From: Vicinamibacterales bacterium
GTDB lineage: Bacteria > Acidobacteriota > Vicinamibacteria > Vicinamibacterales > SCN-69-37
Assembly: GCA_030827135.1 (NCBI GenBank)
Contig: JAURFE010000006.1
Coordinates: forward strand, 1-64,000
Direction of reading: 5' to 3'
DNA length: 64,000 nt
Shown: positions 7,173-60,107 of the stretch, piece by piece
Position numbering within the stretch: position 1 is the stretch's first letter
Layout of the letters: each line of letters begins with the position of its first letter
The notes under the pieces: generated by a model
The model's input: the letters and a program-made list of their open reading frames with translations, nothing else
What the model was told of the DNA's origin: nothing
Databases searched by the model: none
Translations under genes and position numbers: made by a program

Positions 7173-8126
7173 CTACCCGAGCACTGTCGAGGGCTGGAGC
7201 ATGCCGCCGCGCAGGTCGGCCAGAGCGACGAGGGCGCCGTGTCCGTCGAGCAGGCGGATTTTCTGGAGCGTGGCCGAGGCCGGAACCCACGGTCCTTCAA
7301 TCAGTTGCGGGCCTATGGGGTTGCCGTGCCGGACCTTGATCAGGCCGGCTTCCGAGACCTGAACAGCCGGCAGGTCGGCCAGCGCCTCGGCCATCGGGGT
7401 CAGGTGGGCTTCCACCTCCGGGCCCAGACGCTCGGCCTCGGCCAGCGGGAGGGCCCGCGCCACGTCGAACGGGCCGGATCGGGTGCGGCGCAGGGCATCG
7501 AGGTGGGCGGGGCAGCCAAGGGCGTCGCCCAGGTCGCGGGCGAGCGACCGCACATAAAACCCGGCTGAAACGGACACACGAATACGGAGCAGGGCGCCCT
7601 CGCGGGCCAGCCAGGACCACTCGTGCAGCGCCACGGACGCCCGCTTCAGGTCCATGGGTTTGTTCTGACGCGCAAGGTCGTACGCCCGCTGACCATCCAC
7701 GCTTTTGGCGGAATACCTGGGAGGCAACTGTTCAAACGGGCCGACCGTCGCGTCGAGCGCCGCCCGAATCGCATCGTCTGAGACAACCCGCCCATCTTCC
7801 CAACCACCCACCTGCCCATCCGCCCATCCGCCCATCTCGATGGGCTCCCCAGCTGCGTCGTCCGTGGTCGTGGCAAAGCCGAAGCGGATAGTGGCGTCGT
7901 AGGCCTTGGTGTGTCCGGTGAGCAGTGTGGCGATGCGCGTCGCGCGGCCGAGCATCAGGACGAGCAGGCCGGTGGCTCGAGGGTCGAGCGTGCCCGCGTG
8001 GCCGATCGAGCGCTCACCACTGACACGGCGCATCCGGGCCACGACGTCGTGCGACGTCGGGCCGGATGGCTTGTCGATAAGGAGGACTCCGGTCAGCTTA
8101 CGAAACCGCTTTGCGCAGGGCCGCAA
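7173..8126 (-). CDS. truB: tRNA pseudouridine(55) synthase with an in-frame repeat insertion
   Basis: TruB makes pseudouridine 55 in the T loop of tRNAs. The N terminus ([17 protein letters not shown]) and the catalytic-Asp motif [14 protein letters not shown] (Asp about residue 48) are intact, as is the [17 protein letters not shown] segment. A PUA-like tail follows (VRHGNPIG). Residues about 98-113 ([15 protein letters not shown]) lie between [10 protein letters not shown] and the [11 protein letters not shown] helix. They are encoded by the same CCGCCCAT-type octamer array that fills intergenic regions elsewhere in the window, so the loop looks expanded by repeat insertion. The chosen ATG overlaps the metK end by 29 bases. 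A CTG at 8096 just downstream of the metK stop is an alternative start. Confidence 0.93.
7788..7837. repeat. CCGCCCAT-type octamer array inside truB
   Basis: A run of CCCATC, CACCTGCCCAT and CCGCCCAT units with mostly 8-base period lies within the truB reading frame. The same words recur between genes at 25340-25380 and 40353-40415. The array length keeps the frame open, giving a GGWADG/GGWEDG peptide repeat. Confidence 0.8.
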
Positions 8127-24286: not shown

Positions 24287-24305
24287 GTGACTAGTGTACT
24301 CGCGC

Positions 24306-24419
24306 GCATTGAGGATTGAGGAGGGAGGATTGAGGATTGGCAATTGGAGGATTGCGGATTGTGTGATTGCGATTGAGGGATTGAGGGATTGAGGGATTGA
24401 GGGATTGAGGGATTGAGCG
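24306..24419. repeat. ATTGAGGG octamer array between divergent genes
   Basis: About 114 bases made almost only of GATTGAGG, GGATTGCG and ATTGAGGG words. The last third is a clean tandem of ATTGAGGG with exact 8-base period (about five or six copies). It fills the space between the AmgK-like gene and the nucleotidyltransferase, where both promoters would have to lie. The same words recur as a hairpin at 33881-33949. Confidence 0.9.
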
Positions 24420-24429
24420 ATGATTAAAC

Positions 24430-25326
24430 GTGATGCTGCCTACGATTGTCTTGACCGCCGGACTTGGCACTCGTCTCGCGCCGCTGACGCGGATGCTGGC
24501 CAAGCCGGCGGTGCCGGTGGCCGGCAAGGCGTTGGTGGTGCGCGTCCTTGAATGGCTCCAGCGGGAGGGCGTTCGGGACGTCGTCCTCAATCTCCACCAT
24601 CTGCCGGCGACCGTGACGGGCATTGTCGGCGATGGTGCGCAGTTCGGCCTGCGGGTTCGGTACTCCTGGGAGCGCGAGATCCTCGGGTCGGCCGGCGGTC
24701 CGAAGCGTGCCTTGTCCTTGTGGCCGGGGCACGACGGCCCGTGTCTCATCGTGAACGGCGACACCTTGACTGATTGCTCGCTGGCCCCCCTCATCGTGGC
24801 GCACGAGATCGCTCGCGCCGCCGGAGCCGTGGCCACGATGGCCGTGGTGCGGAATCCCCGTCCGGACCATTACAACGGGCTGCGTCTGGACGAGGACGGC
24901 CGGGTGCTCGCGGTGGTGCCGAAGGGCCACGCCGAAGAGACGTGGCATTTCATCGGCGTCCAGGTGGTGGAGTCGCGGGTCTTTGCGGACGTTCCTGCCG
25001 ACACACCTGCCGAAACTGTTGCCGGCATTTACCGCGATCTCGTGGCCCACCAGCCCGGCGCCATTCGCGCGTGGCGGGTCGACGCCCCATTCCTTGATGT
25101 CGGCACGCCGGCCGACTACCTGGATGCGGTGCTGCGTGTGGCGCGTGCGGAAGGCAAGGAAACAAACCCGGTGGTCGAGCCGCCGTGGACGCCGGACATG
25201 GCCCCTGCGGTCATCGATTCAACGGCGCGGCTTACGGAGTGTGTGGTGTGGCCGGGCGCTGTCGTCGGGCCTGGCACGACGCTTCAACGGTGCGTCGTGC
25301 TACCCGATGAGCTGGTGAGCGGATGA
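24430..25326 (+). CDS. Sugar-1-phosphate nucleotidyltransferase, MurU/mannose-1-P guanylyltransferase-like
   Basis: The 298-residue protein has the nucleotidyltransferase signature TIVLTAGLGTRLAPLTRMLAKP near the N terminus, an ILGSAGGPKRAL loop, and the metal-binding LIVNGDTLTD. The C terminus has part of a left-handed beta-helix (STARLTECVVWPGAVVGPGTTLQRCVV). It would make an NDP-sugar from a sugar-1-phosphate, probably the product of the divergent kinase. The start is GTG at 24430 or the ATG directly after it. The usual first residue context is xxAMILAAGxGxR; here it is LPTIVLTAGLGTR. The last codons (VSG, TGA) run directly into a GCGGATGA-type repeat. Confidence 0.88.
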   Translation: MMLPTIVLTAGLGTRLAPLTRMLAKPAVPVAGKALVVRVLEWLQREGVRDVVLNLHHLPATVTGIVGDGAQFGLRVRYSWEREILGSAGGPKRALSLWPGHDGPCLIVNGDTLTDCSLAPLIVAHEIARAAGAVATMAVVRNPRPDHYNGLRLDEDGRVLAVVPKGHAEETWHFIGVQVVESRVFADVPADTPAETVAGIYRDLVAHQPGAIRAWRVDAPFLDVGTPADYLDAVLRVARAEGKETNPVVEPPWTPDMAPAVIDSTARLTECVVWPGAVVGPGTTLQRCVVLPDELVSG

Positions 25327-25380
25327 GCGGCTGCGCGGATGGCATCTGCCCATCCGCCCAGCTGCCCATCCGCCCATCCG
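25326..25380. repeat. GCGGATG/CCGCCCAT octamer array
   Basis: GAGCGG, GCGGATGG, CCGCCCAG and CCGCCCAT units with mostly 8-base spacing fill the gap between the nucleotidyltransferase stop and the HtrA stop. The first half reads as GCGGATG and the second half as the complement, so the block can fold back on itself. Confidence 0.75.
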
Positions 25381-26946
25381 TTAGCGCTTACGAATCGGCA
25401 CCGACTGTTCGTCGCCGTCGCGCCACACTTTGACAACGATGAGCGAACCGGCGCGGGCGCTGCTGAGACGCTTGGCGACCTCATCGACTGACGTCACGGC
25501 CACGCCGTTGACGGCGAGGATGACGTCGCCCCGCGTAAACAGGCCCCGCGCCGCTCCGGACGGATCGACGTTGGCGACCACCGCGCCACCCTGCCCCTGT
25601 GGAATCCGCAGCTGGCGCGCGGTCGCCGGCGTGATCGGCTCGATCGAGAGGCCGAGGCCAATCTCGGTCGGCGCGTCAGGCTCCGGCGTGTTCTCCGGAC
25701 GTTCGTCACCGCCGGCGGTCTCCAACTCGGTCGCCAGGTCCAGTTCCTCGATCGTCACGTTCAGCGTCAGCGGCTTGCCGCCACGCACCACCTTGAGCGG
25801 CACCTTGGTCCCGGGCGCCGTCCGCGTGACCATGTTGATCAGGTCGTCGCTCTTGCTCACGGGCTTGCCGTTGTATTCCACGATGAAGTCGCCCGACTTC
25901 ACGCCGGCGAGATCCGCCGGTCCCTTCGGATTGACCTGGGAGACGAGGGCGGCGCCGGTGGACGGCAGCCCCAGGTCGCGCAGGTCGGCCGCGCTGATCG
26001 GCTGGTTCGACACGAGCACGCCGATGCGCCCGCGCACCACCTTGCCGCCGCGCAGTCCCGGCAGAATTTCCTTGACCGTGTTGATCGGCACCGCGAAGCC
26101 GATCCCGATGTTGCCGCCCGACCGGTCGGAGATGATCGCGGTGTTCACACCGACCACTTCACCCCGTACGTTGAGCAGGGGACCGCCCGAGTTGCCCCGG
26201 TTGATGGCGGCGTCGGTCTGAATCATTTCAAGGTCGCGCCCCGGGACCGGCCGGAGGTCCGCATCGGTCCTGGCCACCGCGCTGACCACGCCGACGGTCA
26301 CCGTGTTCGTGAAGCCGAACGGGCTGCCGATGGCCATGACCCAGTCGCCGGGGCCGAGCTGATCAGAATCACCAAACCTGGCTTCGGTCAGCGGCGCTTC
26401 CGGCATCTCGGTCAACTGCAGCAACGCGCTGTCGGTCAGCACATCGCGGCCGACCACCTTGGCCGACAGACCCGACTCAAGCCCATTCGGGTCCATGCCG
26501 TAGAGAAACACCTCGATGCTCGACGCATCTTCCACCACGTGGTTGTTCGTCAGGATGTAGCCCGCCTTGTCGATCACAAAGCCACTGCCACCCCCTTCAG
26601 CCGGCGGCAACTGCGGCGCGGGCTGCTGACGGCCACGGGGCTGCCCGGGCATCTGGAAGAACTCTTCGAGCAGGCCCCCGCCGCCCTGGCCACCACCGGG
26701 GGCGGCGCGACGCTCCGTGCGCGTCCGGATGCTCACGACGACCGGATTCTGCGACGAGGCGATCGTCCTGAAAGTGGACGCATCCAGCGGCCCTTCCAGG
26801 GGCGCGCTGTTGGTGGCCGGAATATTCACCGTGCCGGCAAAGGACGCGGGTGTCAGATCCAGCTGTGACGCGATCACCATGCCGGCCGCCAACGAGGCGA
26901 CGGCGATCAGGAAACCATAGAAGAACGTGGCTTTACGGTTCGACAT
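25381..26946 (-). CDS. HtrA/DegP-like periplasmic serine protease
   Basis: The 521-residue Do-type protease has an N-terminal membrane anchor or signal (FFYGFLIAVASLAAGMVIASQL), then a trypsin-like domain with His136 (ILTNNHVVED), Asp172 (TDSALLQL) and Ser253 (GNSGGPLLNV). Two PDZ domains follow (PISAADLRDLGLPSTGALV-like near 325-410 and LRIPQGQGGAVVANVDPSGAA near 450-510). A Gly-rich loop (APGGGQGGGGLLEEFFQMPG) precedes the His, like the LA loop of DegP. It would degrade or refold misfolded envelope proteins. It stands alone, convergent with the nucleotidyltransferase. Confidence 0.94.
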   Translation of the reverse strand: MSNRKATFFYGFLIAVASLAAGMVIASQLDLTPASFAGTVNIPATNSAPLEGPLDASTFRTIASSQNPVVVSIRTRTERRAAPGGGQGGGGLLEEFFQMPGQPRGRQQPAPQLPPAEGGGSGFVIDKAGYILTNNHVVEDASSIEVFLYGMDPNGLESGLSAKVVGRDVLTDSALLQLTEMPEAPLTEARFGDSDQLGPGDWVMAIGSPFGFTNTVTVGVVSAVARTDADLRPVPGRDLEMIQTDAAINRGNSGGPLLNVRGEVVGVNTAIISDRSGGNIGIGFAVPINTVKEILPGLRGGKVVRGRIGVLVSNQPISAADLRDLGLPSTGAALVSQVNPKGPADLAGVKSGDFIVEYNGKPVSKSDDLINMVTRTAPGTKVPLKVVRGGKPLTLNVTIEELDLATELETAGGDERPENTPEPDAPTEIGLGLSIEPITPATARQLRIPQGQGGAVVANVDPSGAARGLFTRGDVILAVNGVAVTSVDEVAKRLSSARAGSLIVVKVWRDGDEQSVPIRKR

Positions 26947-30675: not shown

Positions 30676-30706
30676 CGGAATCTCCAATCCTATCAGGACC
30701 CTCGAG

Positions 30707-30742
30707 CCCCTGGACCCCTGGACCCCTGGACCTCTGGACCTC
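30707..30742. repeat. CCCTGGAC octamer array
   Basis: Four to five copies of CCCTGGAC (last ones CTCTGGAC) with exact 8-base period lie between the divergent threonine dehydratase and asparaginase genes, in the likely promoter region. Confidence 0.85.
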
Positions 30743-30772
30743 TTATAGACTTACCGCCGACGGAGGAACGCA

Positions 30773-33880: not shown

Positions 33881-33949
33881 GATTGAGGATTGGGGATTGA
33901 GGATTGAAGGACGCCTCAATCCCTCAATCCTCAGTCCTCAATCCTCAAT
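33881..33949. repeat. ATTGAGG palindrome between convergent genes
   Basis: ATTGAGGATTGGGGATTGAGG on the left is answered by CCTCAATCCCTCAATCCTCAG...CCTCAAT on the right, with a few bases between the arms. Both arms are made of 8-base words. The right arm overlaps the end of the DmpA-type gene and supplies its last codons (LRIED) and stop. Confidence 0.9.
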
Positions 33950-35058
33950 AATTTGAGCGCTTCCAACGGAAGCGCTCTCACCGTTCGTCCATTGGCGGTG
34001 GTGTCGGTTGCCTTGAGCAACGAGTTGTAGATCGCTTCTTCGGTCGCGTCCATGGCCGCTTCAAAGAGGCCTGAGACCGCGTCGGTCGGCAGGAAGGACC
34101 GCGCCTGCGGGCCGTTCGCGGCGTTGACGCGGTTGACTGTGGCTGTGGAAAACGCGATGGCGTAGTCGCCGGATCCATTCGAGAACGTGGACCCGGTGCG
34201 CGCCATCGCGAAGACGGCGCGCGCGGCGAGCCGCTCGAGATCACGCGCGTCCAGCGGCGCATCCGTCGCCACAATGATCATGCAGGAGCCGTCGGCGTCC
34301 TGCGCCCACGTCGTCGACGCGCCACCAGCGCGACCCGGCGTCAGTGTCCGCCAGATCTGGCGGCCGTCGATCGTCAACCGTCCCCCGAAATTCGACTGCA
34401 CCAACACCCCGACCGTCCACGACGGGCCCTGGGCGCCCTGCTGCACCACGCGTGACGCCGTGCCGATCCCGCCTTTCCATCCAAACGCGATCGTGCCCGT
34501 CCCCGCGCCCACCGCGCCCTCAGCGACCGGGCCGGATGCCGCACTCGTGATTGAGGCGATCACATGTTCCCTGGTCACAGGCAGGCTGCGAATGTCGTTC
34601 AGGCCGCCGTCATTGGTCTCGCCCACGAGCGCATTCACCGAGCGCACGTTCTCGTTGCCCTCCTGCGCCAGCGTCCAGCGCACCACGGCCTCAACAGCCG
34701 TGCCCACGGCCAGTGTGTTGGTCAGCACAATGGGGCTCTCGATGGTGCCCAGCTCGCGCACCTGGGTTGAGCCCGCGAGTTTGCCGAAGGCATTCCCGAT
34801 GAACACGGCGCCGGGCACCTTGTCGCGGAACAGGTTCCCGCCGTGAGGCAGCACGGTCGTGACACCCGTGCGCACGCGGTCGCCATCGATCAGCGTGGTC
34901 TGGCCCACCCGCACGTCCGGCACATCCGTGATCGCGTTGAGCGCTCCGGGCGTTCCCGCGCCCGGCGCAATGCCCAGATCCCTCGCCCGCGGACGGTCCT
35001 GGGCGACCACAGCAGCAACAAGGAGCACGCCCATGGCGGAAGCTACGACGGTTTTCAC
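33931..35058 (-). CDS. P1 (S58) family peptidase, DmpA/beta-aminopeptidase type, exported
   Basis: The 375-residue protein has a signal peptide (MKTVVASAMGVLLVAAVVAQ) and the DmpA order: ARDLGIAPGAGTPGALNAITDVPDVRVGQTT, GGNLFRDKVPGAVFIGNAFGKLAGSTQV, IESPIVLTNTLAVG, and the autocleavage Ser in DGSCMIIVATDAPLDARDL. The proenzyme self-cleaves before this Ser (about residue 264), which then hydrolyses N-terminal D- or beta-amino acids. The last five residues are encoded by the ATTGAGG repeat, so the native C terminus may have been replaced. Confidence 0.9.
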   Translation of the reverse strand: MKTVVASAMGVLLVAAVVAQDRPRARDLGIAPGAGTPGALNAITDVPDVRVGQTTLIDGDRVRTGVTTVLPHGGNLFRDKVPGAVFIGNAFGKLAGSTQVRELGTIESPIVLTNTLAVGTAVEAVVRWTLAQEGNENVRSVNALVGETNDGGLNDIRSLPVTREHVIASITSAASGPVAEGAVGAGTGTIAFGWKGGIGTASRVVQQGAQGPSWTVGVLVQSNFGGRLTIDGRQIWRTLTPGRAGGASTTWAQDADGSCMIIVATDAPLDARDLERLAARAVFAMARTGSTFSNGSGDYAIAFSTATVNRVNAANGPQARSFLPTDAVSGLFEAAMDATEEAIYNSLLKATDTTANGRTVRALPLEALKLLRIED

Positions 35059-35076: not shown

Positions 35077-35231
35077 AATGAGGCAATGGGGCAATGAGGC
35101 AATGGGGCAATGGAATGGGGCAATGAGGCAATGGGCCAATGGAATTGGCGGAATTGCGGGAATTGCATTGCCTCATTGCCGAATGCAGCCATTCCATTGC
35201 CCCATTGCCTCATTGCCTCATTGCCCCATTT
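35077..35231. repeat. GGCAATGR palindromic element, copy B (divergent genes)
   Basis: The left half is a tandem of GGCAATGA/GGCAATGG octamers, then GGAATTGGCGGAATTGCGGG. The right half is the inverse, ending in CATTGCCTCATTGCCCCATT. Both halves pair over more than 100 bases. It fills the whole gap between the DmpA-type and S9 peptidase genes. Confidence 0.9.
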
Positions 35232-39974: not shown

Positions 39975-40371
39975 CAGCGCGTGAGGCCGAACGCGAAGCC
40001 GAGCGCCACGTGGTGCGACAACGTCGTCGTCTGTCCGGTGCCGTTGTGGGCCGTCGAGATGGTGGGGCGCGCGTAGGTGAGTTTGTATTCGGTGATGAGG
40101 GACAGGCGTCCTTTCAGCCGGACGTCGAATCCGGCTGCGAGATGGGCAGGCGCCAGCCGTAGTATTGCGGCGAGGTCAGCGACTCTGCCCGAAAGTCGAC
40201 CGTGGGAAAGGTGAGGTCATACCCGTCCCCCTGGACCCGGACGTCCGCCGGCCGCGTTGTATGGCCCCCCATATACAGGCCCGCATACCACTGGGCCGAC
40301 GCCACCCCCGGCACCAGCAACACACCCACGACCATCAGCGCCCGGATTGCCACCCGCCCATTCTCGCCCAT
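39975..40371 (-). pseudogene. Split outer-membrane beta-barrel protein gene
   Basis: The 5' part gives a signal peptide (MVVGVLLVPGVASAQ) and a first strand region (WYAGLYMGGHTTRPADV, YDLTFPTVDFRAE, YYGWRLP). At about 40155 the frame changes, and the other frame gives HLAAGFDVRLKGRLSLITEY, KLTYARPT and SHHVALGFAFGLTR followed by the stop at 39975. The C-terminal strand pattern is typical of OmpA-like small barrels. The total is about 130 residues instead of about 180-200, so the middle is deleted as well as frameshifted. Confidence 0.8.
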
Positions 40372-40415
40372 CCGCCCATCCGCCCATCCGCCCACCTGCT
40401 CATCCGCCCAACTGC
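40353..40415. repeat. CCGCCCAT octamer array
   Basis: CCGCCCAT is repeated four times with exact 8-base period, flanked by CTCGCCCAT and CACCTGCTCAT variants. It sits between the split barrel gene and the ALDH7 gene and supplies an ATG for the barrel frame on the minus strand. Confidence 0.9.
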
Positions 40416-40460: not shown

Positions 40461-41990
40461 GTGGCTGACACCAAGGCGTTGCTGAAGAAGCTCGGAATCG
40501 ACGAGGTCAATGCGGGGGCGTGTATCGGGCCTGATGGCTGGATGCGGGACGATGAGGCCGGACGGATCGTATCGATCAATTCGTCCACCGGCGAGCCCAT
40601 TGCGAGTGTGATGCTGGCGACCGAAGCGACCTGTGACCAGGTGGTGGCGGCGTCGGCCGAGGCGTTTACCCGGTGGCGCGAGGTGCCGGCCCCCAAGCGC
40701 GGCGATCTCGTGCGTGATTTGGGCAACGCTCTCCGCGAGATGAAGGAACCGCTGGGGGATCTCGTCAGCCTCGAGATGGGGAAAATTCGCGCCGAGGGCC
40801 ACGGCGAAGTGCAGGAGATGATCGACATCTGTGACTTCGCGGTCGGCCTGTCGCGGCAGTTGTATGGCCTGACGATGGCGTCGGAGCGTCCGGGGCACCG
40901 GATGATGGAGCAGTGGCACCCGCTCGGCCCCGTGGGGGTGATCTCGGCGTTCAACTTTCCCGTCGCCGTGTGGGCGTGGAACTCCGCGCTGGCGGCCGTC
41001 TGTGGGGATCCCACGATCTGGAAGCCGGCCGAGCCGGCCCCGCTGTGTGGTGTCGCCGTGCAGCACATCTGCAACCGGGTGATGGCCGATCACGGGGTGA
41101 CCGGCATCTTCTCGCTGGTGGTCGGCAAGGGCAGCCTGGTCGGTGAGCGGCTGATTCGCGACCCGCGTGTGCCGCTGATTTCGTTCACGGGATCCACAGC
41201 CGTCGGCCGCCACGTCAGTGAGGTGGTGGCGGGCCGGTTCGGCAAGTCGATTCTGGAACTCGGTGGGAACAACGCCATCATCGTGTGTGAGGATGCGCGG
41301 CTGGATCTCGCGATCCGGGCGATCGTGTTCGGCGCAGTCGGGACAGCGGGGCAGCGGTGCACCACGACGCGCCGGTTGATCGTGCAGCGATCGATCGCGG
41401 CGGACGTGGTCGCGCGTCTGGCGACCGCGTATCAGCAGGTGCCGATCGGCGACGCGCTCGACTCGAAAACGCTGATGGGACCGCTGGTCAACATGCACGC
41501 GGTGGACGACATGTTCGAAGCCATCGAGCAGGCCAAAGCGCAGGGCGGCGACGTGGTGTGTGGCGGCAAACGTCGGCCGGACATCGGTCCGTTCTTCGTG
41601 GAGCCGACCATCATTCGCATGCCCGCACAGTCCGCCATCGTCAAACACGAGACGTTCGCGCCGATTCTGTATGTGATGGAGTACGACACCTTCGACCAGG
41701 CGCTGGCGATGCACAACGACGTGCCGCAGGGGCTGTCGAGCGCGATCTTCACCGAGAGCATGCGCCGCGCCGAAGAATTCCTCTCCGCGCGCGGGTCTGA
41801 CTGCGGTATCGCCAACGTCAACATCGGCACGTCGGGCGCCGAGATTGGTGGCGCCTTCGGTGGTGAAAAGGAAACCGGCGGCGGCCGCGAATCCGGGTCA
41901 GACGCCTGGAAGGCCTACATGCGCCGCCAGACCAACACGGTCAACTGGTCCGAGAAGCTGCCGCTCGCGCAGGGCATTCAGTTCGGTTGA
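40461..41990 (+). CDS. ALDH7-family aldehyde dehydrogenase (piperideine-6-carboxylate / aminoadipate semialdehyde type)
   Basis: The 509-residue NAD-dependent enzyme has the catalytic Cys in GTAGQRCTTTRRL (Cys300), Glu in LELGGNNAIIVCEDA and the NAD loop FTGSTAVGRHV. The C terminus GGAFGGEKETGGGRESGSDAWKAYMRR matches antiquitin (ALDH7A1) and AmaB, which oxidise aminoadipate semialdehyde in lysine breakdown. The GTG at 40461 with an AGGGAGA site is chosen over an upstream TTG. It stands alone, so the pathway is inferred from family only. Confidence 0.9.
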   Translation: MADTKALLKKLGIDEVNAGACIGPDGWMRDDEAGRIVSINSSTGEPIASVMLATEATCDQVVAASAEAFTRWREVPAPKRGDLVRDLGNALREMKEPLGDLVSLEMGKIRAEGHGEVQEMIDICDFAVGLSRQLYGLTMASERPGHRMMEQWHPLGPVGVISAFNFPVAVWAWNSALAAVCGDPTIWKPAEPAPLCGVAVQHICNRVMADHGVTGIFSLVVGKGSLVGERLIRDPRVPLISFTGSTAVGRHVSEVVAGRFGKSILELGGNNAIIVCEDARLDLAIRAIVFGAVGTAGQRCTTTRRLIVQRSIAADVVARLATAYQQVPIGDALDSKTLMGPLVNMHAVDDMFEAIEQAKAQGGDVVCGGKRRPDIGPFFVEPTIIRMPAQSAIVKHETFAPILYVMEYDTFDQALAMHNDVPQGLSSAIFTESMRRAEEFLSARGSDCGIANVNIGTSGAEIGGAFGGEKETGGGRESGSDAWKAYMRRQTNTVNWSEKLPLAQGIQFG

Positions 41991-41991
41991 T

Positions 41992-42163
41992 CAATGAGGC
42001 AATGGGGCAATGAGGCAATGAGGCAATGGAATTCTCGAAATGGGTGAATGAGCCAATGCAATGGCCGCAATCATTCCGCATCCATTTCGGGAATTGCATT
42101 GACCCACTAGCCAATTGCGGCAATTCCATTGCCCCATTGCCCCATTGCCTCATTGCCTCATTG
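41992..42163. repeat. GGCAATGR palindromic element, copy C (convergent genes)
   Basis: The left arm is GGCAATGR octamers then GGAATTCTCG; an inner block GCCAATGCAATGGCCGCAAT follows. The right arm inverts this (GGGAATTGCATTG, then GGCAATTCCATTGCCCCATTG and CCTCATTG units). It begins next to the ALDH7 stop and overlaps the end of the BNR gene, supplying its last codons (SMRQ) and TGA. Confidence 0.9.
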
Positions 42164-45092
42164 AGGTGACGCGCTCCACAGCGTCCGCAACCGCGGCTTC
42201 TTGATCCATGGTCGGACGTGCGTCAGCGCTCTGCAGCGCACTCAAGAGCGCGGGCAGCGGGGCATAGGCCTGCTGAATCTGCGCGAGGCGCTCGGGTGAT
42301 GCGCCGGTGCGCATGGCGGCGAGCTGGCCGATCAGGTCGTGCACGGTGCGGGACAACTTGAACTGCAGCGTCAGATCAACAGCAGGCGTCTGCACCCGCG
42401 GATCCATCCGCACGGTCACCGCCTGTCGATACACCTGACCACCGACAGTCAGACGAACCTGATACGTGCCGGGCAGCACCCAGATGCCCTGCGGACTCTG
42501 AGGCGTGTTCCCCCGGATCGCCGCGATGGCGTAACTGAAACTGGTCACGGCCGGCGGCGTGTATCGCACATCCCACACAAAACGATGCAAGCCGGGCGTC
42601 GCCGCAAGTCGTTGGGTCGGCCGGATCCAGTAGTCCGGCAGGTTCGGCGCGATCACTGGAGGAGGCTCGGGGTCGTCGCTGGAGTAGCGACGAATGACGG
42701 GGCCATCGACTTCCACGATCTCCAGCGTGACCGGCCCCTGCACATCGGGACCGAGGAAGTAACTGATGGTCACCCCGTCCGGAGGATTCGGCATGGCGGG
42801 TTCATCGGGTGGAAGCGGCGTATCGGTGTTCTTGTTCCACCGGAATCGCCATGCGACCGGCGGCCGGAAGAGGTACGCCGCCGATGCGGTGACTGAGGGC
42901 GTGATCTGCCGCAACGGCGACATGTCGTCGAGAATCCAGAAACCACGGCCATGGGTGCCGACCACGAGGTCGGCATCCTTGATCACGAGGTCACGAATCG
43001 ACGTGGCGGGCATGTTCAATCGCAACGACTGCCACTGATCCCCGTCGTCAAACGACACCGACACGTTGAGTTCGCTCGCGGCAAACAGGAGACCCCGCCG
43101 AATGGGATCCTCACGCACCGCGTTGATCGTTGCCCCGTCAGGCAGGCCGGAGACGATACGCCGCCAGGACTTGCCGCCGTCGCGGGTGCGATAGATGTGC
43201 GGGCGCAGGTCGTCGAGCCGCAGGGTGTTCACCGCGATGTACGCCGCATTGGCGTCAAAGTGTGACGCCTCGACCAGCGAGATCTTCTGCCACGGCTGCA
43301 GGTCCGGCGGCGTCACGTCGGTCCAGGTGCTGCCGCCATTCCTGGTGACATGCACCAGACCATCGTCGGTGCCGACCCAAATGGTGTCGCGGTCCACGTA
43401 GGAGGGACCGATCGTATAGATCACGCCACGCTGCGTCGGCTGGGCGTTTGGCCGTGAACGGTAGACGCCGACACTGGCCGGCACCTCCCAGGTGTGGCGG
43501 GTGAGGTCAGGACTGATCTGTGTCCACTGTCTGCCGCCGGTGGTCGTTTTCCAGAGTGTGTTGGACGCGAAATACAGCGTCCGCGGGTCGAGCGGCGAGA
43601 ACAGGATCGGTTGTGTCCTCACCGTGCGATAGCCTGGGTCCCGGGGCGGCGATACATTCTGGGTCTGTCGCGTGCGGCGGTCATATCGCGACACCTTGCC
43701 GCCGTAGACGACATCTGGATCGAGCGGATCAGGCGCGACGTATCCGTACTCTTCAACGCCGACCGGGCTCCACTCCCGGAACGTGATCTGTCCCTCGTCG
43801 CCGCGACTCTGCACACACGCCGATCCCGACTCCTGCTGGCCCCCGCACACGCGATAGGGGAACGCGTTGTCCGTGCTCACGTGGTAGAACTGCGCGGTCG
43901 GCTGGTTGTACCAGGAACTCCATGTGCGTCCGCCGTTCAGCGTGACGATCGCGCCCTGATCGGCCGTCATAAGGATGATGTCCGGCTGCGTCGGGTGAAT
44001 CCACATGCGCTGATAGTCGTCACCGCCGGGCGCGCCACGCCACCCGGTGAACGTCGCCCCGCCGTCGGTGGATTTCCAGGCGACGATGGTCGGCACGTAG
44101 ACCGTGTCCGGGTCCGTCGGGTGTACGCGGATGTCAGCCGCATCGGCGGGACGGGCGACGACGCGCGAATCCGTGTTGGTCCGCCGCCATGTCTCGCCGC
44201 CGTCGTCGGACCGGAAGATGCCGCCGTTGCGGCCGGCATCCACTGCGGCGTAAAGCCGCCGCCTGTTGCTCGGGGCGACGGTGATGCCGATGCGGCCGAG
44301 GCCCTCCTCGAACGTCGGCAGGCCGTTGGTCAGCGGCCGCCAGGTGGTGCCGCCGTCCGTGGATTTGAAGAGACCGCTGCCGGGGCCGGTCCACACCGCG
44401 TTTTCCCACGGGCCCTGTCGCTGTTCCCAGAGCACCGCATAGATGGTGTTGGGGTCCACCGGATCGAGCGCGAGGTCGATGCCGCCGGTGTTGTCATCCT
44501 TGTAGAGCACCTTCTCGAAGGTCTGCCCCCCGTTGAGCGAACGGAAAATGCCACGCTCGGTGTTTGGCCCGTACGGGTGTCCCAGCACGGCGACGAACAG
44601 CCGATTGGGATTGGTCGGGTCGACCACGATCTGCGGAATCTGCTGGGCGTCCCGCAGGCCGAGATGGGTCCACGTGCGGCCCGCATCGGTGGACTTGTAC
44701 AGGCCGTCGCCGGTGGAGAGGTCCGGGCGAGGCATACCCTCGCCGCTGCCCACGTACACGATGTCGGGATCCGATTCGGCGACGGCGATTGCGCCAATCG
44801 ACCCGGTCGGTTGGTCGTCGAAGATCGGATTCCACGTGCGACCGGCGTCGTCGGTCTTCCACACGCCGCCGTTGACGACGCCGACGTAGAACGTGAAGGG
44901 CTGCGACGGCACACCGGCGGCGGCTTTGGTGCGGCTGGCGCGCAGGGGGCCGATGGGACGCCATCGCAGTTCGGAGAACAAGGCCGGAGCAACGCCCGGC
45001 GAGGCCGGCTGGGTGGTGACGCCGGCGAGCGTGACGACGAGCAGGGTCCCCGCAAGGGAGACACCCAGAACGGTGCGGAAGGCGGGTCGCAT
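42150..45092 (-). CDS. Large exported BNR/VPS10-sortilin-like beta-propeller protein
   Basis: The 980-residue protein has a signal peptide (MRPAFRTVLGVSLAGTLLVVTLAG) and many BNR repeats of the type SxDxGxTW (GVWKTDDAGRTW, LYKSTDAGRTW, IFRSLNGGQTF, LFKSTDGGTTW and more), forming a two-propeller body. The C-terminal 250 residues are a beta-rich domain (PPAVTSFSYAIAAIRGNTPQ, GTYQVRLTVGGQVYRQAVTV). Such proteins are often labelled sialidase or glycosyl hydrolase, but no catalytic triad is evident, and a binding or scaffold role is as likely. A GTG six codons upstream (45110) is an alternative start. The 3' end is inside repeat C. Confidence 0.85.
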   Translation of the reverse strand: MRPAFRTVLGVSLAGTLLVVTLAGVTTQPASPGVAPALFSELRWRPIGPLRASRTKAAAGVPSQPFTFYVGVVNGGVWKTDDAGRTWNPIFDDQPTGSIGAIAVAESDPDIVYVGSGEGMPRPDLSTGDGLYKSTDAGRTWTHLGLRDAQQIPQIVVDPTNPNRLFVAVLGHPYGPNTERGIFRSLNGGQTFEKVLYKDDNTGGIDLALDPVDPNTIYAVLWEQRQGPWENAVWTGPGSGLFKSTDGGTTWRPLTNGLPTFEEGLGRIGITVAPSNRRRLYAAVDAGRNGGIFRSDDGGETWRRTNTDSRVVARPADAADIRVHPTDPDTVYVPTIVAWKSTDGGATFTGWRGAPGGDDYQRMWIHPTQPDIILMTADQGAIVTLNGGRTWSSWYNQPTAQFYHVSTDNAFPYRVCGGQQESGSACVQSRGDEGQITFREWSPVGVEEYGYVAPDPLDPDVVYGGKVSRYDRRTRQTQNVSPPRDPGYRTVRTQPILFSPLDPRTLYFASNTLWKTTTGGRQWTQISPDLTRHTWEVPASVGVYRSRPNAQPTQRGVIYTIGPSYVDRDTIWVGTDDGLVHVTRNGGSTWTDVTPPDLQPWQKISLVEASHFDANAAYIAVNTLRLDDLRPHIYRTRDGGKSWRRIVSGLPDGATINAVREDPIRRGLLFAASELNVSVSFDDGDQWQSLRLNMPATSIRDLVIKDADLVVGTHGRGFWILDDMSPLRQITPSVTASAAYLFRPPVAWRFRWNKNTDTPLPPDEPAMPNPPDGVTISYFLGPDVQGPVTLEIVEVDGPVIRRYSSDDPEPPPVIAPNLPDYWIRPTQRLAATPGLHRFVWDVRYTPPAVTSFSYAIAAIRGNTPQSPQGIWVLPGTYQVRLTVGGQVYRQAVTVRMDPRVQTPAVDLTLQFKLSRTVHDLIGQLAAMRTGASPERLAQIQQAYAPLPALLSALQSADARPTMDQEAAVADAVERVTSMRQ

Positions 45093-50345: not shown

Positions 50346-52559
50346 ATGACATCACAGACAGTGCTGCGGTTCCTGACGGGCAGCGTGAGTGCGCTGGCCC
50401 TTGCCGTGACCGTGTGGCCGGCGACGCCGCTGGCACAGACCCGACCGACGGCGGCTGATTACGTGAGCCCCGCGTATCCGTTCGGCCTTGTATCCGCGCG
50501 GACCACGGATCGGCTTGCCTGGATCAGCTACGACGAAGGCAAACGCAACGTGTTCACGGCGGTCGGCCCCGACTTCAAACCGGTGCGCATCACCTCGTTC
50601 ATGAATGACGATGGCGTGGATCTGACGGACCTGAGTGTCTCGGCTGACGGCAGTGTGGCGGTGTTTGTGCGGGGCCACGCGCGCAACCGCGACGGGTGGG
50701 TCGCCAATCCGCTGTCCAACTCCGATGGCACCGAGCGGGCCATCTGGGCCGTCCGTACGACCGGTGGCAGCTCCGCCTTCCGCCTGGCTGAAATTGACAC
50801 GGGCGCGCCAGTGCTTTCCCCGGATGGCCGGCATGCGCTGTACGTAAAGGGCGGTCAGATCTACAACGCCCCCGTCGTGGCCACGGCCGGCAAGACCCCG
50901 CGGGATCGGGGTGAGGAGCCCTTCATCACGGTCTTCGGGGAGAACAGCAACCCGCGCTGGTCGCCCGACAGTTCGCGGTTTGCGTTCGTCAGCAATCGCA
51001 CCGATCACAGTTTCATCGGCGTGTACGAACTCGCGACACGCAGGATCACCTGGCTCGCGCCGGACGTGGACCGCGACACCAGCCCGACCTGGTCGCCCGA
51101 CGGTACGCGCATCGCCTACATCCGCCGGCCGGGCCTGCCGTTCGGGCAGCAGCAACAACAGGGCGCGGCAGGCATTGGCAACCCGGCGGGGCCGGCGGCG
51201 GGGCGACAGGGCGGCCAGGGGGGCCGCGAGATCGGCGGCCTGACGATTCCCGGATTGTTCCGCGCGGAGTTCCGCGGCGGCGGCACCCTCGCGTTCTGGG
51301 TAGCTGACGTGAAGTCGGGGGAGGCACGCGAATTCTGGCGGCACGATCCCGCGGGCACCACCTTCCGCACCATCAACGCCATCCAGTGGGCGGGCGATCA
51401 CGTGATCTTCACGACCCAGATGCCCGACGATGAATACGACCGGTACTTCTCCGTGGCGCTCAACGGCTCGACGAAGGAGCCGGTGATGCTGACGACCACC
51501 AATGGCATCATCGAAGACGCGTCATCCATCAACCTGTCGGTCGACGGCAAGACGCTGTTCTACACCACCAACCACGGGGATATCGATCGCCGCGACATCT
51601 TTGCGGTGTCCACCGGCGGAGGCACTCCCAGGCAGGTGACCGAGACGCCGGCAATCGAAACGCAGCCGGTGCCTCTGCCGTCCGGCAAGGTGGCCGTGCT
51701 GTATGCCGATTACCGCGTACCGCAGTCGGTCGGCGTCGTGCCGGCGACGGGCGGGAACGCCACGGTCGTGTACCCCACGCTGCCCGCGCGGTATCCATTG
51801 TCCGCGCATGTCGAACCCACCAACGTCACGCTGGAAGCGTCGGACGGCGTCAAGTTCAACAATCAGCTGTTCCTGCCGAAGGACCTGAAGCCGGGCGACA
51901 AACGTCCGGCCATGGTGTTTGTCCACGGCGGACCGCAGCGGCAGATGCTGCTCGGCTACCACTATCGGCACGTCTACCACATGTTCTACGGCATCAATCA
52001 GTGGCTCGCCGACAAGGGCTACATCGTCTTGTCGGTGAACTACCGCCGCGGCGTGGGCTACGGCCGCTCGTTCCGTCAGGCCCCGAATTCCGGCGGTCAG
52101 GGCAACGCCGAATATCTCGACGTGCTCGCGGCCGGCAGGTACCTGCACTCCCGACCCGATGTCGATCCGGCACGTGTGGCGATCTGGGGACTGTCGTACG
52201 GCGGCGTGTTGACGGCGCAGGCGCTCGCGCGCAACTCCGATCTGTTTGCGGCCGGCATCGACCTCGCCGGCGTGCACCTCTGGGGCAACTCACTTGATCC
52301 GGAGAGCACGTCATTCAAATCGTCCGTGATCGGGGCGATCGACGGATGGAAGTCGCCCGTGCTCCTGCAGCATGGCGATGACGACCGCAACGTCGCGTTC
52401 ACGCAGACGACCGGCCTCGTGCAGATGCTGCGCGCGCGCAACATCGAATACGAGCTCATCGTGTTTCCAGACGACGTGCACGACTCGCTCGTGCACAGCC
52501 GCTGGATCTACATCTACGAGCGGATGGATGCGTTCCTGAAGAAACACATTGGGCAATGA
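50346..52559 (+). CDS. Exported S9-family (DPP-IV-like) peptidase
   Basis: The 737-residue protein has a signal peptide (VLRFLTGSVSALALAVTVWPATPLAQ), a beta-propeller with WSPD/PDG-type blades (PRWSPDSSRFAFVSN, PTWSPDGTRIAYI) and a C-terminal hydrolase domain. Catalytic residues lie in AIWGLSYGGVLTAQ (Ser617), LQHGDDDRNVAF (Asp) and FPDDVHDSLVHSRW (His). A Gln/Gly-rich insert (QQQQQGAAGIGNPAGP, then GRQGGQGGREIGG) interrupts the propeller near 270. The ATG has a GGAGGA site. The stop TGA is the first TGA of the GGCAATGA array that follows. Confidence 0.92.
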   Translation: MTSQTVLRFLTGSVSALALAVTVWPATPLAQTRPTAADYVSPAYPFGLVSARTTDRLAWISYDEGKRNVFTAVGPDFKPVRITSFMNDDGVDLTDLSVSADGSVAVFVRGHARNRDGWVANPLSNSDGTERAIWAVRTTGGSSAFRLAEIDTGAPVLSPDGRHALYVKGGQIYNAPVVATAGKTPRDRGEEPFITVFGENSNPRWSPDSSRFAFVSNRTDHSFIGVYELATRRITWLAPDVDRDTSPTWSPDGTRIAYIRRPGLPFGQQQQQGAAGIGNPAGPAAGRQGGQGGREIGGLTIPGLFRAEFRGGGTLAFWVADVKSGEAREFWRHDPAGTTFRTINAIQWAGDHVIFTTQMPDDEYDRYFSVALNGSTKEPVMLTTTNGIIEDASSINLSVDGKTLFYTTNHGDIDRRDIFAVSTGGGTPRQVTETPAIETQPVPLPSGKVAVLYADYRVPQSVGVVPATGGNATVVYPTLPARYPLSAHVEPTNVTLEASDGVKFNNQLFLPKDLKPGDKRPAMVFVHGGPQRQMLLGYHYRHVYHMFYGINQWLADKGYIVLSVNYRRGVGYGRSFRQAPNSGGQGNAEYLDVLAAGRYLHSRPDVDPARVAIWGLSYGGVLTAQALARNSDLFAAGIDLAGVHLWGNSLDPESTSFKSSVIGAIDGWKSPVLLQHGDDDRNVAFTQTTGLVQMLRARNIEYELIVFPDDVHDSLVHSRWIYIYERMDAFLKKHIGQ

Positions 52560-52634
52560 GGCAATGAGGCAATGGGGCAATGAGGCAATGGAATGGGCGA
52601 ATGGGGCAATGGGTGAATGGAATGTGCGCAATGG
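52553..52634. repeat. GGCAATGR half element, copy D (between same-strand genes)
   Basis: Four clean GGCAATGR octamers followed by looser GGCGAATGG and GGTGAATGG words. Only the left arm is present; there is no inverse arm. It supplies the stop of the S9 gene and the start region (MRQWNGRMGQW) of the next gene. Confidence 0.85.
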
Positions 52635-58107: not shown

Positions 58108-58111
58108 GCGC

Positions 58112-58148
58112 GGCAATGAGACAATGGGGTAATGGAATGGGCGCAATG
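58112..58148. repeat. GGCAATGR half element, copy E
   Basis: GGCAATGAGACAATGGGGTA and further ATGG words form a short left arm only. It lies between the SDR stop and the start of the serine hydrolase and would add ten extra residues if the upstream ATG were used. Confidence 0.75.
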
Positions 58149-59213
58149 AAGCGAATGGCGCTCGTGATCGTGCTGACGGGTGCGGTTGCGCGTCTGACGG
58201 CACAGGCGCCAGTGGTGCCTGGCGCTGAGTGGGCACGCGTGGGTGATCCGAAGTCGGCAGGGTATTGCCAGGCGCCGCTCGATGCGGTGACGAGTCATCT
58301 GCAGACACTGGGCACCACGGCGGTGACCGTCGTTGTTGGCGGCAAGGTGTTGTTCGACTACGGCCCGCAGGATGAGGTGACGTACCTCGCGTCGGTCCGC
58401 AAGAGCATCCTGGCGATGATGTTCGGGCAGTACATCGCCAACGGCACCATTCGACTCGATGCCACGATGGCCGATCTCGGAATCGATGACGTGCAGGGGT
58501 TGCTGCCGAAGGAAAAGACGGCGACGGTGCGCCAGTTGCTGGCGTCACGGTCGGGCGTGTATCACGAGGCCGCCAATGCCGCGTGCACCGGGTGCGGCAG
58601 CACGTCGGGCGACCCGCCGGGGCCGCGCGGCAGCGTGGAGCCGGGCAGTTATTTCCTCTACAACAACTGGGACTTCAACGCGCTCGGGACCATCTTCGAG
58701 AAGGCGACGGGCAAAGACATCTACGTCGCGTTCGAGGAGGATTTCGCGAAGCCGCTGCAGTTCCAGGACTATCGCCTCGATGCCCAGCGCAAGGCCCGTC
58801 GTCCCCAGGCATCGCAGCACCCGGCGTATCACTTCTATCTTTCCACTCGTGACATGGCGCGACTTGGACTCTTGATGCTCCGCAACGGTCGATGGGGCAG
58901 CACGCGTCTGCTGTCAGAAGAGTGGGTTGAAGAAATGATCACGCCGGTCACGCCGGTGTCAGCAATGAACCCTGCGCCCCTCCGCGATGGCCCGTTCGGC
59001 TATGGGTACCTCTGGTGGATCTGGGACGGCCCGCACAACACCGGTATCTATCGCGACGCCTACACCGGCATCGGCGCCATCGGCCAGTTCATCACGGTGC
59101 TGCCTGAACTCGACATGGTCATCGCGCACAAGACCCGCGCGAATGCGACAGCGGTGTCCCGGGCGCAGTATTTGGATGTCGTCGACAGGGTGGCACGGGC
59201 GCGTTGTCAATGA
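58146..59213 (+). CDS. Exported serine hydrolase, beta-lactamase/class C fold
   Basis: The 355-residue protein has a signal peptide (MKRMALVIVLTGAVARLTAQ), the S-x-x-K motif in TYLASVRKSILAM (Ser83, Lys86), the Y-x-N motif in FLYNNWDFNALG (Tyr172, Asn174) and an HKT-like third motif (VIAHKTRANA). It belongs to the beta-lactamase/D-aminopeptidase/esterase clan; a penicillin-binding or esterase role is more likely than true beta-lactamase. The ATG at 58146 is chosen because the upstream ATG is in repeat sequence. The stop TGA is the first repeat TGA. Confidence 0.9.
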   Translation: MKRMALVIVLTGAVARLTAQAPVVPGAEWARVGDPKSAGYCQAPLDAVTSHLQTLGTTAVTVVVGGKVLFDYGPQDEVTYLASVRKSILAMMFGQYIANGTIRLDATMADLGIDDVQGLLPKEKTATVRQLLASRSGVYHEAANAACTGCGSTSGDPPGPRGSVEPGSYFLYNNWDFNALGTIFEKATGKDIYVAFEEDFAKPLQFQDYRLDAQRKARRPQASQHPAYHFYLSTRDMARLGLLMLRNGRWGSTRLLSEEWVEEMITPVTPVSAMNPAPLRDGPFGYGYLWWIWDGPHNTGIYRDAYTGIGAIGQFITVLPELDMVIAHKTRANATAVSRAQYLDVVDRVARARCQ

Positions 59214-59365
59214 GGCAATGAGGCAATGGGGCAATGGGGCAATGGAATTTCCGCAATTAGGTAATTCCGCAATGCAATGGCCGTAAGTGTGGTCATTCCA
59301 TTCGCCCATTCAAGAATTAGGGGAATTCCATTGCCCCATTGCCCCATTGCCTCATTGCCCCATTC
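59208..59365. repeat. GGCAATGR palindromic element, copy F
   Basis: CAATGAGGCAATGAGG and GGCAATGG octamers, then GGAATTTCCGCAATTAGG, GCAATGCAATGGCCG, then the inverse (CATTCCATTCGCCCATTC, GGGGAATTCC, ATTGCCCCATTGCC). It ends one base before the four-helix-bundle stop on the other strand. Confidence 0.9.
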
Positions 59366-59734
59366 TCAGAGCAACGCCCGTGTCGTCTTCCTCGCCTTGG
59401 CGAACATCGCCCTGAGCTGACGGGCTTCGTTGAGCAATGCGTCAAGATCCGTTGGCGCCCGACAGGTGCCTGTCGCCACGAGGATCTCCAGCCAGTGCAC
59501 GGCTTCATCGATCTCTTCGTTGACGACTTGAAGCTTCGACGCGAATTCCTTGGTTGAACGTGCCCGTCGGACCGCACGGTGATTCGCGCTCACGCTCGTC
59601 GCCGATGCGGCCAGTTGTTGGGTGACGCGAACCATCGCTGGCGGCCACGGCTGACCGCCCAGCAGCGTCAGGATGCTGACGGCAAACCGTTGTGTCCGCG
59701 CCTCAAACGCGTCCAACTTCGCGTGGCGTTCCAT
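59366..59734 (-). CDS. Four-helix-bundle protein (S23 / 23S rRNA intervening-sequence type)
   Basis: The 122-residue protein matches the four-helix-bundle family: LDAFEARTQRFAVSILTLL, MVRVTQQLAASATSVSANHR, RRARSTKEFASKLQVVNEEI and DEAVHWLEILVATG, followed by LLNEARQLRAMFAKARKTTR. Members are found inside 23S rRNA intervening sequences, as free genes of unknown role, and as accessory (Avd) proteins of diversity-generating retroelements. Neither an rRNA nor a reverse transcriptase is here. The ATG at 59734 gives the family N terminus; the frame extends upstream without similarity. Both flanks are GGCAATGR palindromes. Confidence 0.88.
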   Translation of the reverse strand: MERHAKLDAFEARTQRFAVSILTLLGGQPWPPAMVRVTQQLAASATSVSANHRAVRRARSTKEFASKLQVVNEEIDEAVHWLEILVATGTCRAPTDLDALLNEARQLRAMFAKARKTTRALL

Positions 59735-59771
59735 TGGGACGCGGCATTGCACGGCCCATGCCGCATGATGA

Positions 59772-60016
59772 GAATGGGGCAATGGGGCAGTGAGGCAATG
59801 GAATTGCTGCAATTACTCAAGAGCCCGATGCAATTCTCAAGAATGTCAGGAATGGCCCCCTACCAGCTCGGGAAGTTCGTTCCCGTCCTCCCGCAACTGG
59901 GGCATTTCATTCCCGAACACTCATCACAACGCGGCAGGACCCAATTGTGGCCATTGCATTGCGGAATTGAAGCATTGCGGCAATTCCATTGCCCCATTGC
60001 CCAATTGCCCAATTCT
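59772..60016. repeat. GGCAATGR palindromic element, copy G, adjacent to tRNA-Leu
   Basis: The largest copy, about 245 bases. The outer arms are GGCAATGR octamers with GGAATTGCTGCAATT on the left and the inverse on the right. A nested inner palindrome has GGAATGGCCCC answered by GGGGCATTTCATTCC. The right end is five bases from the CCA end of the tRNA-Leu gene. Confidence 0.88.
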
Positions 60017-60020
60017 TGAA

Positions 60021-60107
60021 TGGTGCGGAAGAAAGGACTCGAACCTTCACCCTATTGCTAGGACTAGCTCCTGAGGCTAGCGCGTCTGCCAATTCCGCCA
60101 CTTCCGC
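60021..60107 (-). tRNA. tRNA-Leu (anticodon CAG)
   Basis: On the minus strand the seven-pair acceptor stem GCGGAAG / CTTCCGC is followed by discriminator A and an encoded CCA (60021-60023). The D arm is GTGGCGGAATTGGCAGAC, and the anticodon arm is CTAGC-CTCAGGA-GCTAG with anticodon CAG. A long variable arm typical of class II tRNAs and a GGTTCGAGTCC T arm complete it. It reads CUG codons, the most used Leu codon in this GC-rich genome. Confidence 0.97.

Follow-up and report, generated by a model that had tools for sequence, protein, structure and literature searches.

We propose that a small gene beside tRNA-Leu in a Vicinamibacterales genome, encoding a four-helix-bundle (4HB) protein, and the two palindromes that bracket it are probably a minimal mobile stem-loop element. 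The 4HB protein, its sole gene product, would recognise the element's own repeat, gene-less hairpins would be its satellites, and host enzymes would insert it. This copy lies in a window of 64,000 nucleotides, by which we mean the whole stretch of DNA that was analysed. In the family to which it belongs, the sole gene encodes an S23/Avd-like protein under purifying selection, and the ends are inverted arrays of a 7-9 bp unit private to each element. Close relatives lack the element at the intergenic or intercistronic sites that members occupy, and the two cleanest of these sites show probable 5-bp target duplications. Internal deletion can remove the gene and leave only the hairpin behind, and the highest numbers of hairpins with a given unit are found in genomes that have the matching 4HB gene. 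Mobility of the family is well supported by cyanobacterial plasmid sites; for the window copy, sequence comparison indicates presence versus absence in a relative that is about 15% divergent.

The window element and other arrays in its genome

The 4HB gene, the tRNA-Leu(CAG) gene and palindromes F and G all lie where the original prediction had placed them (Table 1), and the ATG at 59734 is most likely the start of the 4HB coding sequence. The protein matches both TIGR02436 (E 4.5e-17, 62.3 bits against a cut-off of 24) and PF05635 (E 8.8e-9, 36 bits against a cut-off of 33.8). F and G share an 8-bp repeat unit, CATTGCCC/CATTGCCT, and fold strongly when modelled as RNA (predicted energies of -104 kcal/mol for F, taken as 59200-59372, and -117 kcal/mol for G). 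They also match each other, with 73-nt arms that are 84% complementary and score 91 (99th percentile of the null, 38.5), so that together they form a larger inverted repeat with the 4HB gene in its loop. The beta-lactamase-like ORF upstream (58116-59213) has its stop codon within the first repeat units of F. An Rfam scan of the window returned the tRNA as its sole match and no other known RNA family.

Table 1. Positions of the window element, its neighbours and other arrays of the same unit type
Feature	Position in window	Strand	Remarks
Palindrome F	59208-59364		Inverted arrays of 8-bp units (GGGGCAAT / ATTGCCCC); arm downstream of 4HB gene
S23 / TIGR02436 four-helix-bundle (4HB) CDS	59366-59734	-	122 aa; ATG at 59734; the element's only gene
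Palindrome G	about 59769-60018		Second inverted array; arm upstream of 4HB gene; ends beside tRNA-Leu
Large inverted repeat, left arm	59217-59289		Pairs with 59942-60014 at 84%; encloses 4HB gene
Large inverted repeat, right arm	59942-60014		Pairs with 59217-59289
tRNA-Leu(CAG)	60021-60107	-	Neighbour of the element, outside it; Rfam match
Gene-less satellite hairpin, CATTGCCC-type unit	35077-35230		Absent at syntenic site of G004
Gene-less satellite hairpin, CATTGCCC-type unit	41986-42169		Absent at syntenic site of G004
Partial satellite (one array side), CATTGCCC-type unit	52544-52632
Half array, CATTGCCC-type unit, upstream of beta-lactamase-like gene	58109-58150		G004 counterpart C3:156157-156209

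The motif CATTGCCNCATTG has 154 copies in the 3.24-Mb genome (0 for the reversed pattern), grouped at 38 separate loci, and the window locus alone has a 4HB gene. Within the CATTGCCC type, this locus is a gene-bearing copy of the element and the 37 others in the genome are satellites. Six PF05635 genes are present in the genome, and reading their flanks showed that each is flanked by short-repeat arrays of a different unit (GGTTCAT, GGACCCCT, GGATTGAG, GGTGGGCG, CAATGGGG and AATCGGTA). Elsewhere in the window there are arrays of GATTGAGG, GATGAGCGG, GGACCCCT and CCACCTGCC types (24303-24428, 33894-33953, 25302-25383, 30695-30753, 7796-7839 and 40355-40412). Several of these other-unit arrays have syntenic counterparts in the nearest relative, G004 (84-86% identity to the window's genome, G000), indicating that hairpins from several types of element are found together in the region; several sites in the two genomes keep a common array.

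Arrays, units and satellites across bacteria

We surveyed a near sample, with 74 TIGR02436 loci in 16 Vicinamibacterales genomes, and a broad sample chosen by similarity to Xcc0516, with 80 loci representing more than 20 phyla; many of the surveyed genomes are drafts or MAGs. An inverted repeat that spans the gene and exceeds the 99th percentile of a cross-genome null was found at 53 of the 74 near loci; the broad sample gave 37 of 80 loci, compared with one of 238 control ORFs from the same loci. By self-match at periods of 6-10, tandem arrays accompany 115 of 154 4HB elements (75%) but only 15 of 281 control regions (5%), leaving about a quarter of 4HB genes without an array by this criterion. 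The array period peaks at 7, with 8 and 9 also occurring, and the arms have a consistent polarity, G-rich upstream (67:9) and C-rich downstream (75:14). The pairing of the 4HB gene with palindrome arrays is general, and the unit is private to each element. The original prediction had set against itself the case in which most palindromes lack such a gene and most such genes lack palindromes; the first half is what we see (37 of 38 loci), and the second is the reverse of what we see (115 of 154 genes with arrays). Gene-less palindromes that are common, together with arrays at most of the genes, are what one would expect if gene-bearing elements had many derivatives without the gene. A tblastn search with Xcc0516 of 50,697 phage records gave no match, and hence no sign of phage carriage.

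Units and proteins are associated. Among the near loci, elements with similar proteins tend to have similar arms (Mantel r 0.35, 0 of 2000 permutations), and among non-syntenic pairs alike arms were seen in 14 of the 87 whose proteins are related versus 30 of the 2599 others (Fisher p 2.5e-11, although the pairs are not independent). For most diverged 4HB pairs dN/dS is 0.03-0.19; the high exceptions are a Xanthomonas pair (L196-L199, 0.65) and L194-L303, whose value of 0.86 comes from 4 changes only. The low dN/dS values and the association between unit and protein together mean that the protein is maintained while travelling with its unit. The 4HB protein probably recognises its own repeat.

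At least one satellite retains a trace of the gene. At a site occupied in G004 by a complete GGTTCAT-type element, the window's genome has a gene-less hairpin (G000 C11:1379166-1379336) whose loop still matches coding sequence for the 4HB C-terminus (translation DPPQGPKRP, read by eye), so some gene-less hairpins are internal-deletion derivatives. Another deletion derivative, L302, is in the cyanobacterial plasmid set. We also counted four unit patterns in seven genomes of the genus. CATTGCC occurs 154 and 70 times in genomes with the cognate 4HB gene versus 1-52 times in those without; the corresponding counts are 14, 35 and 39 versus 1-5 for AATCGG, 108 and 129 versus 0-1 for GGTTCAT, and 68 and 39 versus 0-8 for GGATTGA. 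Genomes with the cognate gene rank top for four of four units across the seven genomes (Mann-Whitney p 6e-5), a value to be read with the close relationship of G000 and G004 in mind, since the count cells are not all independent and represent few independent lineages. Some hairpins persist without their cognate gene, as with the 52 CATTGCC copies in G004.

Filled and empty sites

The claim that the gene and palindromes form a small moving unit is borne out at near-identical cyanobacterial plasmid sites where elements are present or absent. Upstream of a virB10-like gene, the site is filled in Trichormus and Scytonema and empty in Aulosira, N. linckia and Fremyella, at about 97% identity, with filled junctions of AAAAAGTAAT-element-GTAATTAAC versus AAAAAGTAATTAAC at the empty site; Nostoc C052 has a truncated copy at the same point. 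At a TraM locus, an element is present in Nostoc C052 and N. edaphicum and absent from C057, and Nostoc ATCC 53789 has a gene-less hairpin with the same unit as the two filled sites. The same ATCC 53789 strain carries one operon on three plasmids (pNsp_a compared with pNsp_c and pNsp_b) in three states: with an element between genes 2 and 3, with a different element between genes 3 and 4, and with none. The junction of the gene 2/3 element is GGTTCTA-element-TTCTAGTTATG versus GGTTCTAGGTTATG when empty. Elements are likewise present in one organism and missing from a relative at the cmr2/cmr3, cas6/cas4 (twice, independently) and nrdB/nrdA junctions. Among the filled/empty pairs compared are PCC 7003 versus PCC 7002 and Anabaena 90 versus Dolichospermum. 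At the two cleanest sites the element is likely flanked by 5-bp target duplications, GTAAT and TTCTA; both sites hold elements of one subfamily, and other junctions are blurred.

Two further sets of plasmid loci deserve mention. Identical 4HB genes lie beside an integrase gene on plasmids 1 and 2 of Calothrix brevissima (L186, L187), and the matching junction in Tolypothrix (L312) has no element. Three cyanobacterial plasmids carry 4HB elements within CRISPR-Cas operons, two at cas6/cas4 (L184, L307) and one at cmr2/cmr3 (L190).

At the site in G004 that is syntenic with the window element, the element is absent and another gene and another hairpin are found instead; intergenic divergence between the two genomes is too high for a clean junction, and we therefore claim only presence versus absence for the window copy. 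In G004, the stretch from the beta-lactamase-like gene to tRNA-Leu contains the different gene (C3:157260-158480) and, beside the tRNA, a short GGTGCTC-type hairpin. Short CATTG hairpins occupy the tRNA-Leu side in G001 and G006, and none is present in G005. The original prediction had also pointed to the tRNA 3' end as an integration site. That palindrome G adjoins this end, and that G001 and G006 have hairpins there as well, are what could be said for a tRNA-Leu-specific integrative element, to which we give almost no credence: neither an integrase nor a duplicated tRNA end was found, the 37 other family loci and the five other 4HB genes were not found at tRNA-Leu, and the hairpin units at tRNA-Leu differ between species. 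Integration directed by tRNA-Leu is refuted for the family, and the adjacency of the window element to the tRNA is incidental. At another syntenic place, G000 (L006, C33:344257) and G004 (L114, C18:23227) each have a 4HB element, in opposite orientation and with proteins less similar than expected of orthologues, which suggests inversion or replacement at a preferred site.

Possible means of movement and relation to known repeats

The AlphaFold model of the window protein has four helices (mean pLDDT 91.8), and its top matches include the S23 proteins 2RLD and 2GSC; it also matches 4DWL and 8UB7, which represent Avd of diversity-generating retroelements (DGRs). TM-scores to the target are about 0.8, and 0.80-0.84 for 2GSC and the Avd structures. 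The suspected link to S23 and retroelement accessory proteins is thereby upheld at the level of predicted fold. To our knowledge, S23 proteins have no known function, even though structures have been solved since 2006. The 2GSC protein, Xcc0516, is a pentamer (PMC4990558). The 4HB protein has no known catalytic domain, and a search for a partner enzyme found none: there was no transposase among the gene-bearing copies that we inspected, and none of the seven genomes of the genus, one of them rated 100% complete and rich in hairpins, has a match to RVT_1 (PF00078). Most probably, a pentameric 4HB protein would bind its own arm repeats, either as an extruded DNA hairpin or as an RNA stem, and the bound protein would bring in host replication or recombination enzymes; these would then carry out the insertion both of the element and, acting in trans, of its gene-less satellites.

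Several other explanations deserve consideration. The hairpins could be moved in trans by an ordinary transposase, either RAYT/Y1 as for REPINs or that of an IS, with the 4HB gene as a passenger. Indeed, all seven genus genomes have one or two Y1 transposase genes, REPINs too are short inverted hairpins, and a 5-bp target duplication fits many DDE transposases. RAYT genes, however, are usually flanked by their own REPs, and none of six Y1 genes has repeat arrays within about 1-2 kb; moreover, unit counts track the cognate 4HB gene but are not matched by changes in Y1 copy number, and in more than 20 phyla the element contains this same 4HB gene. We therefore consider this explanation unlikely. 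The two Y1 genes of the window's genome are at C11:1080581 and C51:143181, with no arrays nearby. Retro-mobility, in which the 4HB protein would act like DGR Avd while a host reverse transcriptase copies the stem-loop RNA, draws on the predicted match to Avd of the DGR ribonucleoprotein (8UB7, 4DWL). With RVT_1 in none of the seven genus genomes, a reverse transcriptase acting in trans is disfavoured, and we noticed no template or variable repeats; we regard this route as very unlikely.

It is about equally improbable that the hairpins are mainly terminators or mRNA-processing stems regulated by an RNA-binding 4HB protein, with mobility secondary. Hairpins do lie at gene ends and between cistrons, and RNase III cuts the stems of 23S rRNA intervening sequences (IVSs) (PMC4990558), but elements inside cas6/cas4, cmr2/cmr3 and accB/accC operons are unlike terminators, and the private unit of each element would be left unexplained. 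Less probable still is a non-mobile origin, in which slippage and template switching would produce the arrays locally, and the 4HB gene would be a host gene lying among them by chance. Unit and array length vary, G000 and G004 share arrays at several sites, and the accB/accC copy is old and stable, all of which fit such an origin. Nonetheless, elements are missing from sites with about 97% identical flanks, the ATCC 53789 plasmids have two different elements at two junctions of one operon and none on the third plasmid, and non-syntenic loci have a subfamily and unit in common. The filled and empty sites contradict a non-mobile origin.

Among known systems, the nearest to the 4HB element is the 23S rRNA IVS, of which that of Coxiella burnetii is an example: about 0.4 kb, with an S23 ORF in a stem of terminal inverted repeats (PMC4990558). 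These IVSs have long been suspected of being selfish or mobile; their mobility has been hypothesised since the 1990s, and a role of the ORF product in it is likewise only a hypothesis (PMC4990558). The window element has the same enclosed S23 ORF; unlike IVSs, however, the elements described here lie outside rRNA, between genes and cistrons, and have inverted arrays of private 7-9 bp units, many gene-less satellites, and sites seen in both filled and empty form, with probable 5-bp duplications. A rough motif check of the fetched loci gave no convincing 23S rRNA context. REPINs and RAYTs resemble the element in having short inverted intergenic hairpins whose many non-autonomous copies are tied to a protein-coding locus; the element differs in lacking a Y1 transposase, in the absence of arrays beside the Y1 genes of the genus, and in its likely 5-bp target duplication. 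MITEs, like the satellites, are internal-deletion derivatives with inverted ends that are moved in trans, but the gene-bearing relative here encodes only a 4HB protein and no transposase. DGR Avd shares the four-helix-bundle fold, whereas the genus has no detectable reverse transcriptase.

We also consider a wider reading, which we hold at a little below even chances: S23/TIGR02436 genes would define a bacteria-wide class of transposase-free mobile elements. A small pentameric protein would recognise its private heptad arms and, by way of host enzymes, drive the insertion of itself and of gene-less satellites; orphan heptamers of Xanthomonas and other lineages would be such satellites, 23S IVSs would be rRNA insertions of this class, and the CRISPR linkage of the IVP family would be the outcome of insertion into cas operons. 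One paper (PMC10910872) counts the IVP family as CRISPR-linked; insertion between cas genes offers a simpler reason for this linkage and calls for caution over the label. In the literature that we searched, with preprints and most subscription papers beyond reach, nothing linked S23 genes to tandem-repeat hairpins, and nothing matched an intergenic class with private arrays, satellites and filled/empty sites. A tiny, widespread element with no recognisable transposase, and so a candidate mobile element that encodes no known recombinase, may explain several "orphan" repeat families and the puzzle of 23S IVSs. Self-specific arrays, filled/empty sites and satellite copy number make both S23 function and IVS mobility testable.

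The same reading offers one origin for heptamer repeats reported without a known mover: GGGAATC, of which each Xanthomonas genome has about 70 inverted pairs, and the Nostoc heptamer GGGGA(C/T)T. The authors who described them reported no general link to mobile elements (PMC4692102). These orphan heptamers have the same 7-bp tandem architecture as the arms of 4HB elements; what differs here is that the Xanthomonas unit was found flanking a 4HB gene. Cyanobacterial STRR sequences likewise have a 7-bp tandem architecture. The Xanthomonas element, with unit GGGAATC, lies exactly between accB and accC, and this placement is kept in Xanthomonas, Luteimonas and Dokdonella (L196-L200), with arms of GGGAATC or GGGATTC, which means that some copies are stable for long times.
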